NCBI GenBank assembly: GCA_021296325.1
Contig: JAGWAR010000006.1
Location: 36,577-100,576, forward strand
Direction of reading: 5' to 3'
Origin: Alphaproteobacteria bacterium
GTDB lineage: Bacteria; Pseudomonadota; Alphaproteobacteria; GCA-2746255
Length of the DNA: 64,000 nt
Shown piece by piece: positions 12,130 through 17,377 of the stretch. Within the stretch, counting starts at the first letter, position 1, and each line of letters starts with the position of its first letter. The notes beneath the pieces were generated by a model that saw only the letters and a list, made by a program, of their open reading frames with translations, had not been told where the DNA came from and searched no databases. The position numbers and the translations under genes are program-made.

Positions 12130-12137
12130 GAGAACCG
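12130..12137 (+). repeat. target-site duplication, left copy
   Basis: GAGAACCG immediately outside the left IR; identical copy outside the right IR. Confidence 0.9.
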
Positions 12138-12157
12138 GGTAGTGTCTCAGTTTGAAA
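12138..12157 (+). repeat. left terminal inverted repeat of the element
   Basis: GGTAGTGTCTCAGTTTGAAA; reverse complement found at 15912-15931. Confidence 0.95.
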
Positions 12158-13034
12158 TCTGGCGTTTCCTATAAGCCTTCGGCCTGCCCGGCTTCGGGGC
12201 GCGGGCGTCTATCAGACCCACGATCCATTCCATGTCATGCAGGGTATAGGAAATACCGGCTTCCATCGCCGGGGATATTCCGCCCAGCGCCTTGTGCTGA
12301 CGGCAGAAATTATACCAGACAAAGTATAGCGCCAGCGCATGACAGTGGTTTTCGAATTTCTTGGAGAACGCATTGGTCAGCCTAGTAAATCGCCGCATGG
12401 ACATCCGCATCGTCAGGTTCTGCCGCTCGACGTAGGATGTAGAGACGTGCTTGGGATCGGGCTTTCCCCGAAGACGGTCCTTTTTAACGCCATTGCAAAC
12501 AGGCGGGCTATATCGCTTTTCGCTTTCTGGGGCTGTGCCGTACATCTTTACAAGCTGGGCATAATCAATACCCCTATCAGCAAACGCCCCGATCACAGCA
12601 TCCAGATAGGCATAATGCCCGTCGGTGGTTAGCTGGACGCGATTTGTTAGGCGACCCGCTACATCATCCATGAAGGCGTTTGCTAACTCGGAGTCCCGGC
12701 CACCGACCAGCCAAGAGACAATCAGCTTGCTATCGGCATCCAAAGCCGTCCACGTCCATACATCGCCCGCACCCTCTGGCGCGGCCTTCGCCGTGGGTAC
12801 GTTCTTCGCCTTGGCGTAGGCAAAGCTCCAGATTTCATCGCACTGGACGCGCTTGGATTTAAGCCCGCGCACATGTTCGTCATGATAGGCCGCGCAAGCG
12901 TTCCCGGCATCCACCAACAATTTGGATACTGTATTGATGGAAACGCCCACCACGCGGCTGATGGACCGCATGGAAGACCCCTCGCAGAGCATGGAAAGGA
13001 TTTGGATGCGCTTCTCTAGGGGCAATTTGTTCAT
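12147..13034 (-). CDS. IS1-family-like DDE transposase (single ORF)
   Basis: N-terminal HTH (SMRSISRVVGVSINTVSKLL), D-D-E candidates CDEIW / TTDGH / VERQN; lies inside the IR-bounded element. Confidence 0.9.
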   Translation of the reverse strand: MNKLPLEKRIQILSMLCEGSSMRSISRVVGVSINTVSKLLVDAGNACAAYHDEHVRGLKSKRVQCDEIWSFAYAKAKNVPTAKAAPEGAGDVWTWTALDADSKLIVSWLVGGRDSELANAFMDDVAGRLTNRVQLTTDGHYAYLDAVIGAFADRGIDYAQLVKMYGTAPESEKRYSPPVCNGVKKDRLRGKPDPKHVSTSYVERQNLTMRMSMRRFTRLTNAFSKKFENHCHALALYFVWYNFCRQHKALGGISPAMEAGISYTLHDMEWIVGLIDARAPKPGRPKAYRKRQISN

Positions 13035-13040
13035 GCCCCT

Positions 13041-13069
13041 ATTATCTGAACTTATATACTTAGCGTCAA
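13041..13069 (-). promoter_or_regulatory. predicted sigma70-type promoter of the transposase gene
   Basis: Minus strand TTGACG-N17-GATAAT, with the ATG only 6 nt after the -10. Confidence 0.6.
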
Positions 13070-13079
13070 GTATTTTTGT

Positions 13080-14252
13080 TCACTTAAGGGTTGGTTCAAT
13101 AATCGGGGGCTCTCCCATCGTAAGCGAACCCTTTTTAAGGTTGCACATGGCCTCAATGAAGCGTGGATTGATCTGGACAGCAGCTTTTAATCCGTCAGCA
13201 GTCATTTTGCCGCTCTCCGCTGCCAAATCGAATGCCCGAGTCAAAAGGCGTGGGCTCTCTAGGGGGATGAGTGACGGGTCATCTAGCGGCTCTTGTGTGC
13301 GCCACTTCCTGAAAGAAACCTGCTTACGCATATTCAAAATTTGGTTCTCATCGAAAATCCCAAGATCAGAACAACGGTAAATCATAGCTTGAATTGAAAC
13401 ACGCCATCGGCGTTTCAATTCCACAAATGCATCTAACCGTGGTGTAAATACTTCGTTGGGAAACGAGTGTTTTGGAAGTAGGAAAGCCCCAGCAAAACGA
13501 TCCGCTTGTCTCTCTATTTCCTTTAAAAATGTCCTATCCTCAATTTCAGATGAATCAATATGTCGGTGCATCACCAAATGCCCAAGCTCGTGAGCAAGAT
13601 CGAATCTAGTCCGCACCCCGGCCTTTTTCTCGGATGCCATAAAAATGAACGGACGTGGGCCATTCCAGAATGAAAACGCCTCTACATTTTCGCCAGCCAT
13701 TTCATAGCGACAAGCAATGACACCATTCGATTCCAGCAGGGCCAATACATTAGAAATTGGCCCCAAACCAAGCCCCCAGTCTGAGCGAACCCGCTCTGCT
13801 ATTTCGTCAATCCCATCTTCGCCAAAGTCAGCGTGGTCATATTGAGGAACCTTAACTGCCGGATAATTCACAAAGCGATCAAACGCCTTCGCCACTTGCA
13901 CAAACCAGCCAGCATAAGTGTCGCACGCCTCGCGCCGACGAGCGGTATCGGAGCCAAATTTGCGATAAAACCGTGTGGTCGATTGCCCGAATACAGGCTC
14001 ATCTTCCGACGTAAAGAACCCCGGCGGCTGCTCAAGTGCAGAGACGAGCGCCGTAAAGGTTTCTGGATCGGGAAGTCTGTCCCCGCGCTCGAATTGCGAA
14101 ATTGCTTGGCGCGTAACACCAATTCGGTCGCCCAATTCTTCCTGCGATAGGCGCAAAAACTTACGCGCATCCCTAACGCGCGCTGGAATCAAAAGCCGCC
14201 CACCACGATCAGGGCGGGCGGCTGGGAAATGGACGATGTTATTCGTTGTCAC
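13080..14252 (-). CDS. XRE-family HTH + ImmA/IrrE-type metallopeptidase-like protein
   Basis: N-terminal HTH (LRLSQEELGDRIGVTRQAISQFERGDRLP) and HExxH motif (FDLAHELGHLVMHRH). Confidence 0.9.
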   Translation of the reverse strand: MTTNNIVHFPAARPDRGGRLLIPARVRDARKFLRLSQEELGDRIGVTRQAISQFERGDRLPDPETFTALVSALEQPPGFFTSEDEPVFGQSTTRFYRKFGSDTARRREACDTYAGWFVQVAKAFDRFVNYPAVKVPQYDHADFGEDGIDEIAERVRSDWGLGLGPISNVLALLESNGVIACRYEMAGENVEAFSFWNGPRPFIFMASEKKAGVRTRFDLAHELGHLVMHRHIDSSEIEDRTFLKEIERQADRFAGAFLLPKHSFPNEVFTPRLDAFVELKRRWRVSIQAMIYRCSDLGIFDENQILNMRKQVSFRKWRTQEPLDDPSLIPLESPRLLTRAFDLAAESGKMTADGLKAAVQINPRFIEAMCNLKKGSLTMGEPPIIEPTLK

Positions 14253-14874
14253 GCCTTAGCCTGTCGATTTCTTCTTTAAGAGTCATCACCGCTTCAACGT
14301 CCGTTTCCTCCATCGGAACTTCCGACTGGGGAACCGAATGAGCCATCAACATCAAATTGGGCGACCTATGCTGAAACCCTTCAGAGTGGCGAGGGTGTGG
14401 AATCGCAAGGTGTGCGAAATCAAGCGTCTGATGGCCATGCAGCAGCAGAATGTGCGGCGCCCCATTCCATTCCCCTAAATCTTCCCGCATGAACTCCATG
14501 GAGATCTGGCTAGTTAGCCTTTTATTCCGGCGAAATTTTACGTCACGCGGCTGCTTGTCCGGATGGGCGACTTGGCTGATGGTTAACACAGAGTGGCTGA
14601 ACAAAACTTCCAAGTAGCGGCCCGTCGGGCGTTCGAATAAACGCCAGCACCGATCAACACCGAACTGGCCCGAATCGACCAGCTTCTCGAACGCCAAATC
14701 GACCGCCCACTGAATGATCCGCCCTCGATTGGCCTTTGCGCTCTCTACGGAAAGAATGGGCTCTTTGTCTATGACAAGGCTTGCTGCCGCATAGGCTTGC
14801 TTCAGGGTAGTTGGAACAACCGCCCGACGAACAAGCGGAATCTGGTCGAGAAGAAACGCTTCAGAGAGTTCCAA
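14239..14874 (-). CDS. hypothetical protein, partner of the XRE-ImmA gene
   Basis: Longest ORF reaches a TTG at 14913, but this abuts the predicted -10, so TTG at 14874 is more likely; 14-nt overlap with the XRE-ImmA gene. Confidence 0.75.
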   Translation of the reverse strand: MELSEAFLLDQIPLVRRAVVPTTLKQAYAAASLVIDKEPILSVESAKANRGRIIQWAVDLAFEKLVDSGQFGVDRCWRLFERPTGRYLEVLFSHSVLTISQVAHPDKQPRDVKFRRNKRLTSQISMEFMREDLGEWNGAPHILLLHGHQTLDFAHLAIPHPRHSEGFQHRSPNLMLMAHSVPQSEVPMEETDVEAVMTLKEEIDRLRRDNE

Positions 14875-14914
14875 GGAGGAGGCCCTTTCCGGGTTGCCGA
14901 AGTCAGTAGGCAAC

Positions 14915-14943
14915 TATTTACGAAATTACCAGGTTTTTGTCAA
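14915..14943 (-). promoter_or_regulatory. predicted sigma70-type promoter of the partner/XRE-ImmA operon
   Basis: Minus strand TTGACA-N17-TAAATA. Confidence 0.6.
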
Positions 14944-15179
14944 CTGCAAGATTTCCCCCATCGCTTGGCAGCCGCCTTCTTAGCGATCTCCGCCCGCTTC
15001 TTCTTGCTCAGGCTCTTGGCCCGCGCTTGGCCGCCCTTTTTCCCTAGGGCAACGGCGGCCTTGTTTTTGCCGTTCTCATCTACGCTATCTTCAATCTCGC
15101 CCGTAGCGATCTTGGCAACCTTGACGGCGGCTCCAATCACATCGGCAGGGCGTTTCTCGCCTTTGGGGCCCTTAGGCAT
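14940..15179 (-). CDS. small Lys/Ala-rich protein (79 aa)
   Basis: MPKGPKGEKRPADVIGAAVKVAKIATGE...KKGGQARAKSLSKKKRAEIAKKAAAKRW; resembles a recurrent family of small basic proteins. Confidence 0.7.
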   Translation of the reverse strand: MPKGPKGEKRPADVIGAAVKVAKIATGEIEDSVDENGKNKAAVALGKKGGQARAKSLSKKKRAEIAKKAAAKRWGKSCS

Positions 15180-15385
15180 CAGGCGTCCACCTCAGAAATG
15201 ATGGTGTAGCCTGCGGAAAGCGTGCCCGTGCCGGTCGCAGAAGGGCGGGACGGCTGCCAAGTGAAGCCCACAATGCGAACGTGGCCCTTACGCGTTGCGA
15301 TGTTCTGCAAAACCTCGTTTAGATTGGAAATATCATCCCGTGCGGTATCTGCTTGGTACTTTTTAGCTTCAGCTCTTTCAGCCAT
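15179..15385 (-). CDS. hypothetical protein (68 aa)
   Basis: Stop overlaps the start of the next gene (TGATG); predicted promoter upstream. Confidence 0.6.
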   Translation of the reverse strand: MAERAEAKKYQADTARDDISNLNEVLQNIATRKGHVRIVGFTWQPSRPSATGTGTLSAGYTIISEVDA

Positions 15386-15412
15386 AGTCGCTTCCTCATG
15401 TGCTTTCCGCTA

Positions 15413-15441
15413 AGCATATAGGGATTTAAGGCGTGCTGCAA
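15413..15441 (-). promoter_or_regulatory. predicted promoter for the 15385/15179 small-gene pair
   Basis: Minus strand TTGCAG-N17-TATGCT. Confidence 0.45.
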
Positions 15442-15492
15442 ACAGCAGCCTTTGGTATCTTTCTCACGTTCACAATTGATGGGGGATTAGCT

Positions 15493-15660
15493 ATGGCTAG
15501 AGTATCTCCTTTCCATAGTAAGAAGAATCCTGGCGTCTACCACGTTTGCTCAAATTGTACTGAGGGCAATAATATCGAACGTGAAAATAGAGCCTCCGGG
15601 ACTGGGGGTGGGTCGCTTTGCCAGCGATGCAGCGAGCTACAGCGTTCGGGTAATTGTTAA
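15493..15660 (+). CDS. small zinc-ribbon-like protein (55 aa)
   Basis: MARVSPFHSKKNPGVYHVCSNCTEGNNIERENRASGTGGGSLCQRCSEL; two CxxC pairs; ATG at 15493 chosen over ORF start 15433. Confidence 0.65.
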   Translation: MARVSPFHSKKNPGVYHVCSNCTEGNNIERENRASGTGGGSLCQRCSELQRSGNC

Positions 15661-15927
15661 CTCATTAATATGGTTTACGCGGGGGGCGGCCTCCAAGCGC
15701 TTGCAGTGATCCCAAATCAATTCGCCAAGAGTTGGGAGGCTGACCCCCCACTTTCGAGAAAGCCACTCAAATGTCATTCCGTTAGAGTGGATTTCCCAAC
15801 ACAGGATTTCGCCAAAGCTTTTTCCACATCCAGTCGGGCATGCCTCATATTGCTCGACAATTAATCGCCGTAGCCTTGTTAGGTGGGATTCCTCCATGTC
15901 AACCGCCCGATTTTCAAACTGAGACAC
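15637..15927 (-). CDS. hypothetical protein with HTH-like segment
   Basis: GMTFEWLSRKWGVSLPTLGELIWDHCKRL; GTG start lies in the right IR, alternative ATG at 15897. Confidence 0.55.
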   Translation of the reverse strand: MSQFENRAVDMEESHLTRLRRLIVEQYEACPTGCGKSFGEILCWEIHSNGMTFEWLSRKWGVSLPTLGELIWDHCKRLEAAPRVNHINELTITRTL

Positions 15928-15931
15928 TACC
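15912..15931 (-). repeat. right terminal inverted repeat of the element
   Basis: TTTCAAACTGAGACACTACC, exact reverse complement of the left IR. Confidence 0.95.
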
Positions 15932-15939
15932 GAGAACCG
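15932..15939 (+). repeat. target-site duplication, right copy
   Basis: GAGAACCG immediately outside the right IR. Confidence 0.9.
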
Positions 15940-16024: not shown

Positions 16025-17377
16025 TCACCTGTTGCCGCCCTTGTAATCGGCCACTTTTTCGGCCTCGCCGGCCAACACCTGGGCGATCGCCGCCTCGATG
16101 GCGCCGGTATCCGTCACCTGGCGCAGGCCCTTTTCCTCGACGATGGCGGCGGCCGGCTTACCGGTCTCCACCATCTCGGCGAAGACATCTTTGGCGATCC
16201 GCCCCGAAATCGTGTCGTCCGCGATGAGGTCGACCAACCCGCCCAAATCCTCCGCCGAGACGGGCGAGGCCGTGACCGGAACGCCTTTCTTGTTGAGCGC
16301 GCCGAAAAGCTCGCCGATGACCCAGTTGGCGGCCAGTTTCGGGTCGCGGCCCTTCGCCACCTTCTCGTAATAGGCCGCATTCTCCTGCTCGGCGACCAGC
16401 ACGCCCGCATCGTACGGCTGAAGACTGTATTCGGTGATGAAGCGTTCCTTCTTGTCGTCGGGCAGCTCCGGCAAGGCGGCGCGCAGTTCCTCGACGCAAT
16501 CCTCGCTCAGGCGAAGCGGCAGCAAATCCGGGTCCGGGAAATAGCGGTAGTCATGCGCCTCTTCCTTTGACCGCATCGGGCGCGTCTCGCCCTTCGCCGA
16601 ATCGAACAACCGCGTTTCCTGACGAATCGTGCCGCCGTCTTCCAGAAGGTCGACCTGACGGCGCGCCTCGTATTCGACGGCCTGCATGGCGAAGCGAACC
16701 GAATTCACGTTCTTGATTTCGCAGCGCGTGCCGTAAGGCTCGCCCGGCCGGCGCACGGAGACGTTCACGTCACAGCGCATCGAACCTTCTTCCATGTTGC
16801 CGTCGCAGGTGCCGAGATAGCGCAGGATCGAGCGCAGCTTCCGAAGGTAAGCGCCAACCTCCTCCGATCCGCGCAAATCCGGCTCGGAAACGATTTCCAT
16901 CAGCGCCACGCCGGCCCGGTTGAGGTCGACATAGGTCTGGTTCGGATGCTGGTCGTGGAGGCTCTTGCCGGCGTCCTGCTCCAGGTGCAACCGCGTGATG
17001 CCGACCGTGCGCGTCTTGCCGTCCGGCAGGTCGAGCAGCACCTCGCCCTTGCCCACGATCGGATGCGTCCATTGGGAAATCTGGTAGCCGGCCGGCAGGT
17101 CCGGGTAGAAATAGTTCTTGCGGTCGAAGATCGAGACCCGGTTGATCTCGGCCTTCAGCCCCAGCCCCGTGCGCACCGCCTGGCGGACGCATTCCCCGTT
17201 GATGACGGGCAGCATGCCCGGCATCGCCGCATCGACCAGCGAGACCTGGGTGTTTGGCTCGGCCCCGAAATCGGTCGGCGCGCCGGAGAAAAGCTTCGCC
17301 TTCGAGACGATTTGGGCGTGCACCTCGCAACCGATAACGATCTCCCATTCGCCGGTGGCCCCCTGAATGCCCATCAC
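16025..17377 (-). CDS. gatB: Asp-tRNA(Asn)/Glu-tRNA(Gln) amidotransferase subunit B, C-terminus apparently frameshifted
   Basis: GatB sequence ([13 protein letters not shown]...); ORF stops at 16025 but the expected tail [25 protein letters not shown] is in another frame down to 15954. Confidence 0.93.

Follow-up and report, generated by a model that had tools for sequence, protein, structure and literature searches.

Most of what is known about bacterial defence systems concerns large islands, prophages and plasmids; the movement of small defence modules between replicons is less well understood. IS1 elements are typically ~0.8 kb long, with transposition genes only, and have inverted repeats (IRs) of ~20 bp and target site duplications (TSDs) of 8 to 9 bp. 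Classic IS1 has overlapping insA and insB ORFs connected by a frameshift. Single-ORF members exist in ISfinder, as do some IS1 members of several kilobases, and some of the elements described here may be catalogued there. In transporter IS (tIS), one IS-type transposase, IRs and a TSD surround genes that do not serve transposition. Tn3-family transposons make 5-bp duplications. Toxin-antitoxin (TA) genes are recurrent passengers of the Tn3 family, according to one report (PMC7157771). RosmerTA systems combine an ImmA-type antitoxin with diverse toxins, and one such system, that of Gordonia phage Kita, makes E. coli resistant to some phages (PMC10440598).

The locus studied here lies in a window of 64,000 nucleotides (the whole stretch of DNA that was analyzed). 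Like the single-ORF branch of IS1, it has a predicted DDE transposase related to IS1 models, ~20-bp IRs starting with GG and 8-bp duplications. Unlike IS1, the element and its relatives are 2.1 to 4.4 kb long with universal cargo and a companion protein, and the transposase falls short of the NCBIfam IS1 cut-off. As in tIS, an IS-type transposase and its ends enclose passenger genes, but here all members of the clade carry cargo, which is exchangeable among them, and the cargo is accompanied by a companion gene that stays constant and by an operator held in common. Tn3-family TA transposons differ in transposase class and duplication length (here 8 bp), and in family profile searches the element's seven main ORFs matched neither a Tn3 transposase nor a resolvase family. 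As in RosmerTA, an HTH-ImmA antitoxin (RmrA) adjoins the toxin RmrT, and the toxin partner varies both there and among these elements; the difference is that the pair is here the cargo of a small transposon. Insertion sequences with passengers and TA-bearing transposons are already known, and this is not a new category. The apparent novelty, on the literature searched, is that one IS1-like clade combines universal, exchangeable, defence-rich cargo with a constant companion and a shared operator; a search of the literature, outside ISfinder and TnPedia, found no cargo-bearing IS1 elements.

Boundaries and transposase of the element

The element spans 3,794 bp (12138-15931); its 20-bp ends are perfect inverted repeats of each other, and the 8-bp duplication that flanks them is exact. 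Its features are as follows.

12130-12137, no strand: target site duplication, copy 1, GAGAACCG (exact direct repeat)
12138-15931, minus strand (the strand on which the transposase reads): whole element, defined by the IR pair and TSD; architecture shared with 63 listed relatives
12138-12157, plus strand: terminal IR at the transposase end (IRR in element orientation), holding the transposase stop codon; 20/20 complementary
12147-13034, minus strand: predicted IS1-like single-ORF DDE transposase, 295 aa (D66, D138, E203; PF03400, NF033558, conservation in 81 relatives)
13056-13073, minus strand: operator-like palindrome ATACTT-N6-AAGTAT in the transposase promoter, covering its -35-like region
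13080-14252, minus strand: predicted RmrA antitoxin, HTH plus ImmA/IrrE (M78) domain with HELGH (PDLC03952, E=2e-180; PF06114, PF01381)
14239-14913, minus strand: predicted RmrT toxin, 224 aa (PDLC03938, E=2.2e-88)
14940-15179, minus strand: companion protein, 79 aa (MPKGPKGxKRPADVIG...GGxARA...RW)
15179-15385, minus strand: 68-aa ORF in a variable slot, overlapping the companion start by one base
15400-15417, minus strand: operator-like palindrome in the leader, ATGCTT-N6-AAGCAC
15433-15660, plus strand: 75-aa ORF, doubtful gene
15637-15927, minus strand: doubtful gene, a 96-aa ORF whose start lies in the IR
15912-15931, minus strand: terminal IR at the cargo end (IRL in element orientation); 20/20 complementary
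15932-15939, no strand: target site duplication, copy 2, GAGAACCG (exact direct repeat)

Chance origin of the IR pair and TSD is excluded. The first-pass annotation had proposed an intact IS1-like element with passenger genes, a 20-bp IR pair, an 8-bp duplication and an intact DDE transposase, and all of this was borne out within the same bounds; the same ends and 8-bp duplications recur in relatives. It had also allowed a reading of the junction as 19 and 10 bp. Since 61 listed elements share GGTAGTG-like ends with 8-bp duplications, the 20/8 reading holds and the 19/10 reading does not. The possibility that the two IRs belong to different elements was ruled out, as the same ends, TSD and skeleton recur across the family.

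Searches with the 20-bp IR and with the transposase indicated a single copy in this genome, an incomplete MAG of 1.63 Mb: the IR occurs nowhere else in it, even with 2 mismatches allowed, and neither does the transposase gene. The GC content of the element is 52%, versus 63% for the window. A look for empty sites with a single GAGAACCG between gatB and the OmpA-like gene of relatives had been suggested as a check. In two congeners (L086 and L087) these genes do adjoin without an insert, which indicates a real insertion at a site empty in relatives; the single copy of the octamer could not be traced because the intergenic DNA is too diverged.

Two peculiarities were seen on the cargo side. Compared with three congeners, gatB lacks ~28 bp near its 3′ end (window 16025-16060), which shifts the frame and shortens the C terminus; this may be either a real mutation or an assembly error. 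Within the element, ~430 bp between IRL and the conserved leader (window 15418-15911) are extra relative to relatives and hold no recognizable genes.

The transposase ORF is unbroken. It matched PF03400 with 25.7 bits (cut-off, 24.1) and the NCBIfam IS1 model NF033558 with 63 bits (E=2.6e-17), below that model's cut-off of 100 bits. D66, D138 and E203 are kept in at least 97% of 81 listed relatives, consistent with an intact DDE triad. The insA/insB arrangement is absent, a single 295-aa ORF taking its place; the ends and duplications, here and in the 61 listed elements with 8-bp TSDs, are those of the IS1 family, and RefSeq labels the plasmid relatives "IS1 family transposase." Judged by these profile matches and conserved residues, the protein is probably a distant IS1 relative, a predicted single-ORF DDE enzyme.

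Cargo of the element and of its relatives

The main cargo is a predicted RosmerTA toxin-antitoxin defence pair. RmrA retains the HELGH motif (residue 221), and its gene adjoins that of RmrT with a 14-bp overlap. An AlphaFold model of RmrT had a mean pLDDT of 47 and was set aside; we found no mechanism assigned in the literature to the present RmrT subfamily. The "novel cargo set" of the first-pass annotation is thus at its core a described phage-defence toxin-antitoxin (PDLC03952 and PDLC03938 matches). Its count of about six passenger genes stands for RmrA, RmrT and the companion, and plausibly for the coupled 68-aa ORF, which formed a weak cluster with ORFs of L012 and L026. It does not stand for the 96-aa and 75-aa ORFs, which overlap on opposite strands and had no relatives in family or cluster searches. 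The cargo is probably dispensable for transposition.

Relatives were collected in two sets. The first comprised 80 transposase loci from a scan of genome contigs, the best 80 of at least 579 relatives. Ends were located as IR pairs adjoining exact 8-bp repeats, without supplying the IR sequence to the search, and ends of the same type with an exact 8-bp duplication were found at 60 of the 80 listed loci. With the window and curated cases, this gave 64 elements of 2.1 to 4.4 kb among the matches listed, 61 of them with 8-bp TSDs, all 61 different. None of the 64 listed elements is cargo-free. In the second set, drawn from viral contigs and plasmids, 41 of 62 loci had such ends and a TSD, and 32 of the 41 had a match to the companion. 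At least ~100 relatives, mostly alphaproteobacterial, on genomes, plasmids and viral contigs, share these ends and carry different, often defence-related cargo, which suggests a mobile-element family that shuttles bacterial immunity modules.

The companion, a protein of ~75 aa, was found by profile search in all 64 listed elements, in transposase orientation and mostly within 500 bp of IRL. When 142 genomes of the class were searched, all but three of the clear matches to the companion lay near such a transposase; these three adjoin an IR-like end, and two are near a contig end. Several distant elements of the second set, 1.8 to 2.6 kb long, lack the companion, which therefore marks one clade. 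These shorter elements (L202-L206 and L217) have ends of the form GGTAGTGGGCTACTTTGA or GGTAGTGGCCTGATTTGA and 8-bp duplications.

Exchangeable cargo occupies the interval from companion to transposase (slot 2). Among the 64 listed elements it holds RosmerTA in 15, P63C proteins in 13, SDH/ClpP-like proteases, some with a small partner, in 6, and DUF6941 operons and STAND-like ATPases in 5 each; Panacea antitoxins, a methylase-HNH cargo, a BRO-N/PDC-S13 protein, a HEC-04-like ATPase and unknowns make up the rest. For roughly half of the cargo classes, no role in defence is known. RmrA was found in only 7 of the 142 class genomes, so its presence in 15 of 64 listed elements is a strong excess; it was also found in 11 of the 41 second-set elements. 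An optional slot 3 beyond the transposase carries NYN/HEC-09, Abi_2/PD-T4-5-like, PemK-like or Panacea proteins. Upstream of the companion, ORFs of 55 to 114 aa, often overlapping its start, are unrelated between most listed elements. On an Acidiphilium plasmid (L104, 5883-6721), such an element is directly adjoined, at its transposase end, by a toxin-antitoxin pair of the RES-domain/Xre type.

Origin and role of the cargo

Cargo tracks transposase phylogeny hardly at all: cargo class required 39 changes on the transposase tree of the listed elements, versus 42.1 changes with shuffled labels and a minimum of 8, almost as if shuffled. In pairwise DNA alignments, the conserved blocks were IRL with ~80 to 100 bp, the companion gene, and the transposase gene together with the ~45 bp that precede it. 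The DNA between these blocks was unrelated, with clean breakpoints even between near-identical elements. Two elements of one MAG (L059 and L068) share 91% transposase-block identity and carry DUF6941 and SDH cargo, respectively; L015 and L027 share 90% and carry STAND and another cargo class. Recombination between elements at the conserved blocks would be the simplest route of exchange. Independent capture of host genes by each element would fit the many cargo classes, several of which occur once among the listed elements, but the same classes recur in the same slot with the same boundaries beside distant transposases (RosmerTA in 15 and P63C in 13 listed elements), and the blocks on both sides stay conserved; we regard such capture as unlikely.

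Taken as a whole, the locus is probably an IS1-like DDE transposon that is autonomous and belongs to a family in which the skeleton is fixed and the cargo slots are exchangeable, the main slot here holding RosmerTA. The skeleton would consist of IRL, a leader with an operator, the companion gene, a transposase promoter with the same operator, the transposase and IRR. The transposase would recognize the 20-bp ends and insert the 3.8-kb unit as a whole, without target specificity and at cuts staggered by 8 bp, and the element may still be active. The earlier view of the element holds as to its bounds and IS1-likeness. It is incomplete in that the element is no one-off but belongs to a large family with universal and exchangeable cargo, and it missed the companion and the shared operator. 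An ordinary IS1-like element that once captured neighboring genes, as a classic tIS with no family-wide system behind it, would agree with the single copy in this genome and with the passenger genes known in several IS families (PMC7986276, PMC9330008). This account is largely refuted by the family, given the companion in 64 of 64 listed elements, all with cargo, and the clean modular breakpoints, and we consider it very improbable.

A further question is whom the cargo serves. In the fixed-skeleton transposon proposed here, cargo may favor retention by protecting the host from phages or by toxin-antitoxin addiction. Alternatively, it may serve the element itself, through addiction or as parts of the transposition module, with phage defence incidental. 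Many cargos are TA-like (RosmerTA, Panacea, PemK-like), and TA pairs of Tn3 transposons have been argued to be part of the transposition module (PMC7157771). Against this, one RosmerTA has measured anti-phage activity (PMC10440598), and methylase-HNH, Abi_2-like, STAND-like ATPase and NYN/HEC-09 proteins are found among the cargo as well. We give the alternative a substantial chance, short of even. In its broadest form, our own proposal is similarly tentative: a widespread IS1-derived system might shuttle and reshuffle small immunity modules in Alphaproteobacteria, with swaps between the companion and transposase genes and the companion as a palindrome-binding regulator. Defence modules would have a simple carrier in an element of 2 to 4 kb that can move by itself, always has the companion gene and offers a slot with replaceable contents. 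The slot would also offer a guilt-by-location route to new defence genes, its uncharacterized cargos (P63C proteins, SDH-type protease pairs, DUF6941 operons and others) being testable candidates. The elements are also easy to clone and would suit a study of whether the control of transposition is linked to the immunity cargo.

The shared palindrome and the companion protein

A palindrome of the form ATGCTT-N6-AAGCAT occurs in 40 of the 64 listed leaders, upstream of the companion gene, and in 45 of the 64 transposase promoters, with both sites in 35 elements; the background was 32 matches in 574 kb of flanking DNA. Most promoter copies are at -39, over a -35-like TTGAC. In the window, the promoter copy preserves perfect symmetry via paired changes (ATACTT...AAGTAT). 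That leader and transposase promoter have the palindrome in common implies that some regulator acts on the two and, with it, regulation at the level of the element. This regulator would be encoded by the element itself, the companion being the simplest choice, and would bind both promoters and keep transposition low.

The companion is only a candidate binder, because an association of its subtype with the palindrome failed in the second set. Subtype correlated strongly with palindrome presence in the first set, where it was defined after looking; the association was absent among the viral and plasmid elements, and subtype as a predictor of the operator was dropped. Neither Pfam nor NCBIfam has a family that the companion matched. 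The GGxARA...RW motif at its C terminus gave a weak match to PHROG 2384, and the AlphaFold model of the protein has three helices, with no match in a fold search of the PDB. A tblastn search with the companion found no match in plasmids and phages; this search was insensitive, since plasmid loci carry the companion by profile. P63C cargo proteins (L010, L014, L016, L032, L037, L051 and L054) have an N-terminal GGxARA...IAxxAA motif that is also the motif of the companion C terminus, hinting at shared binding or shared origin. Around the inner palindrome, an outer inverted repeat (TGAA...GTTC) was present in 25 of the 64 listed transposase promoters, compared with 18 of 4706 background windows; the corresponding region of the window is 13040-13085.
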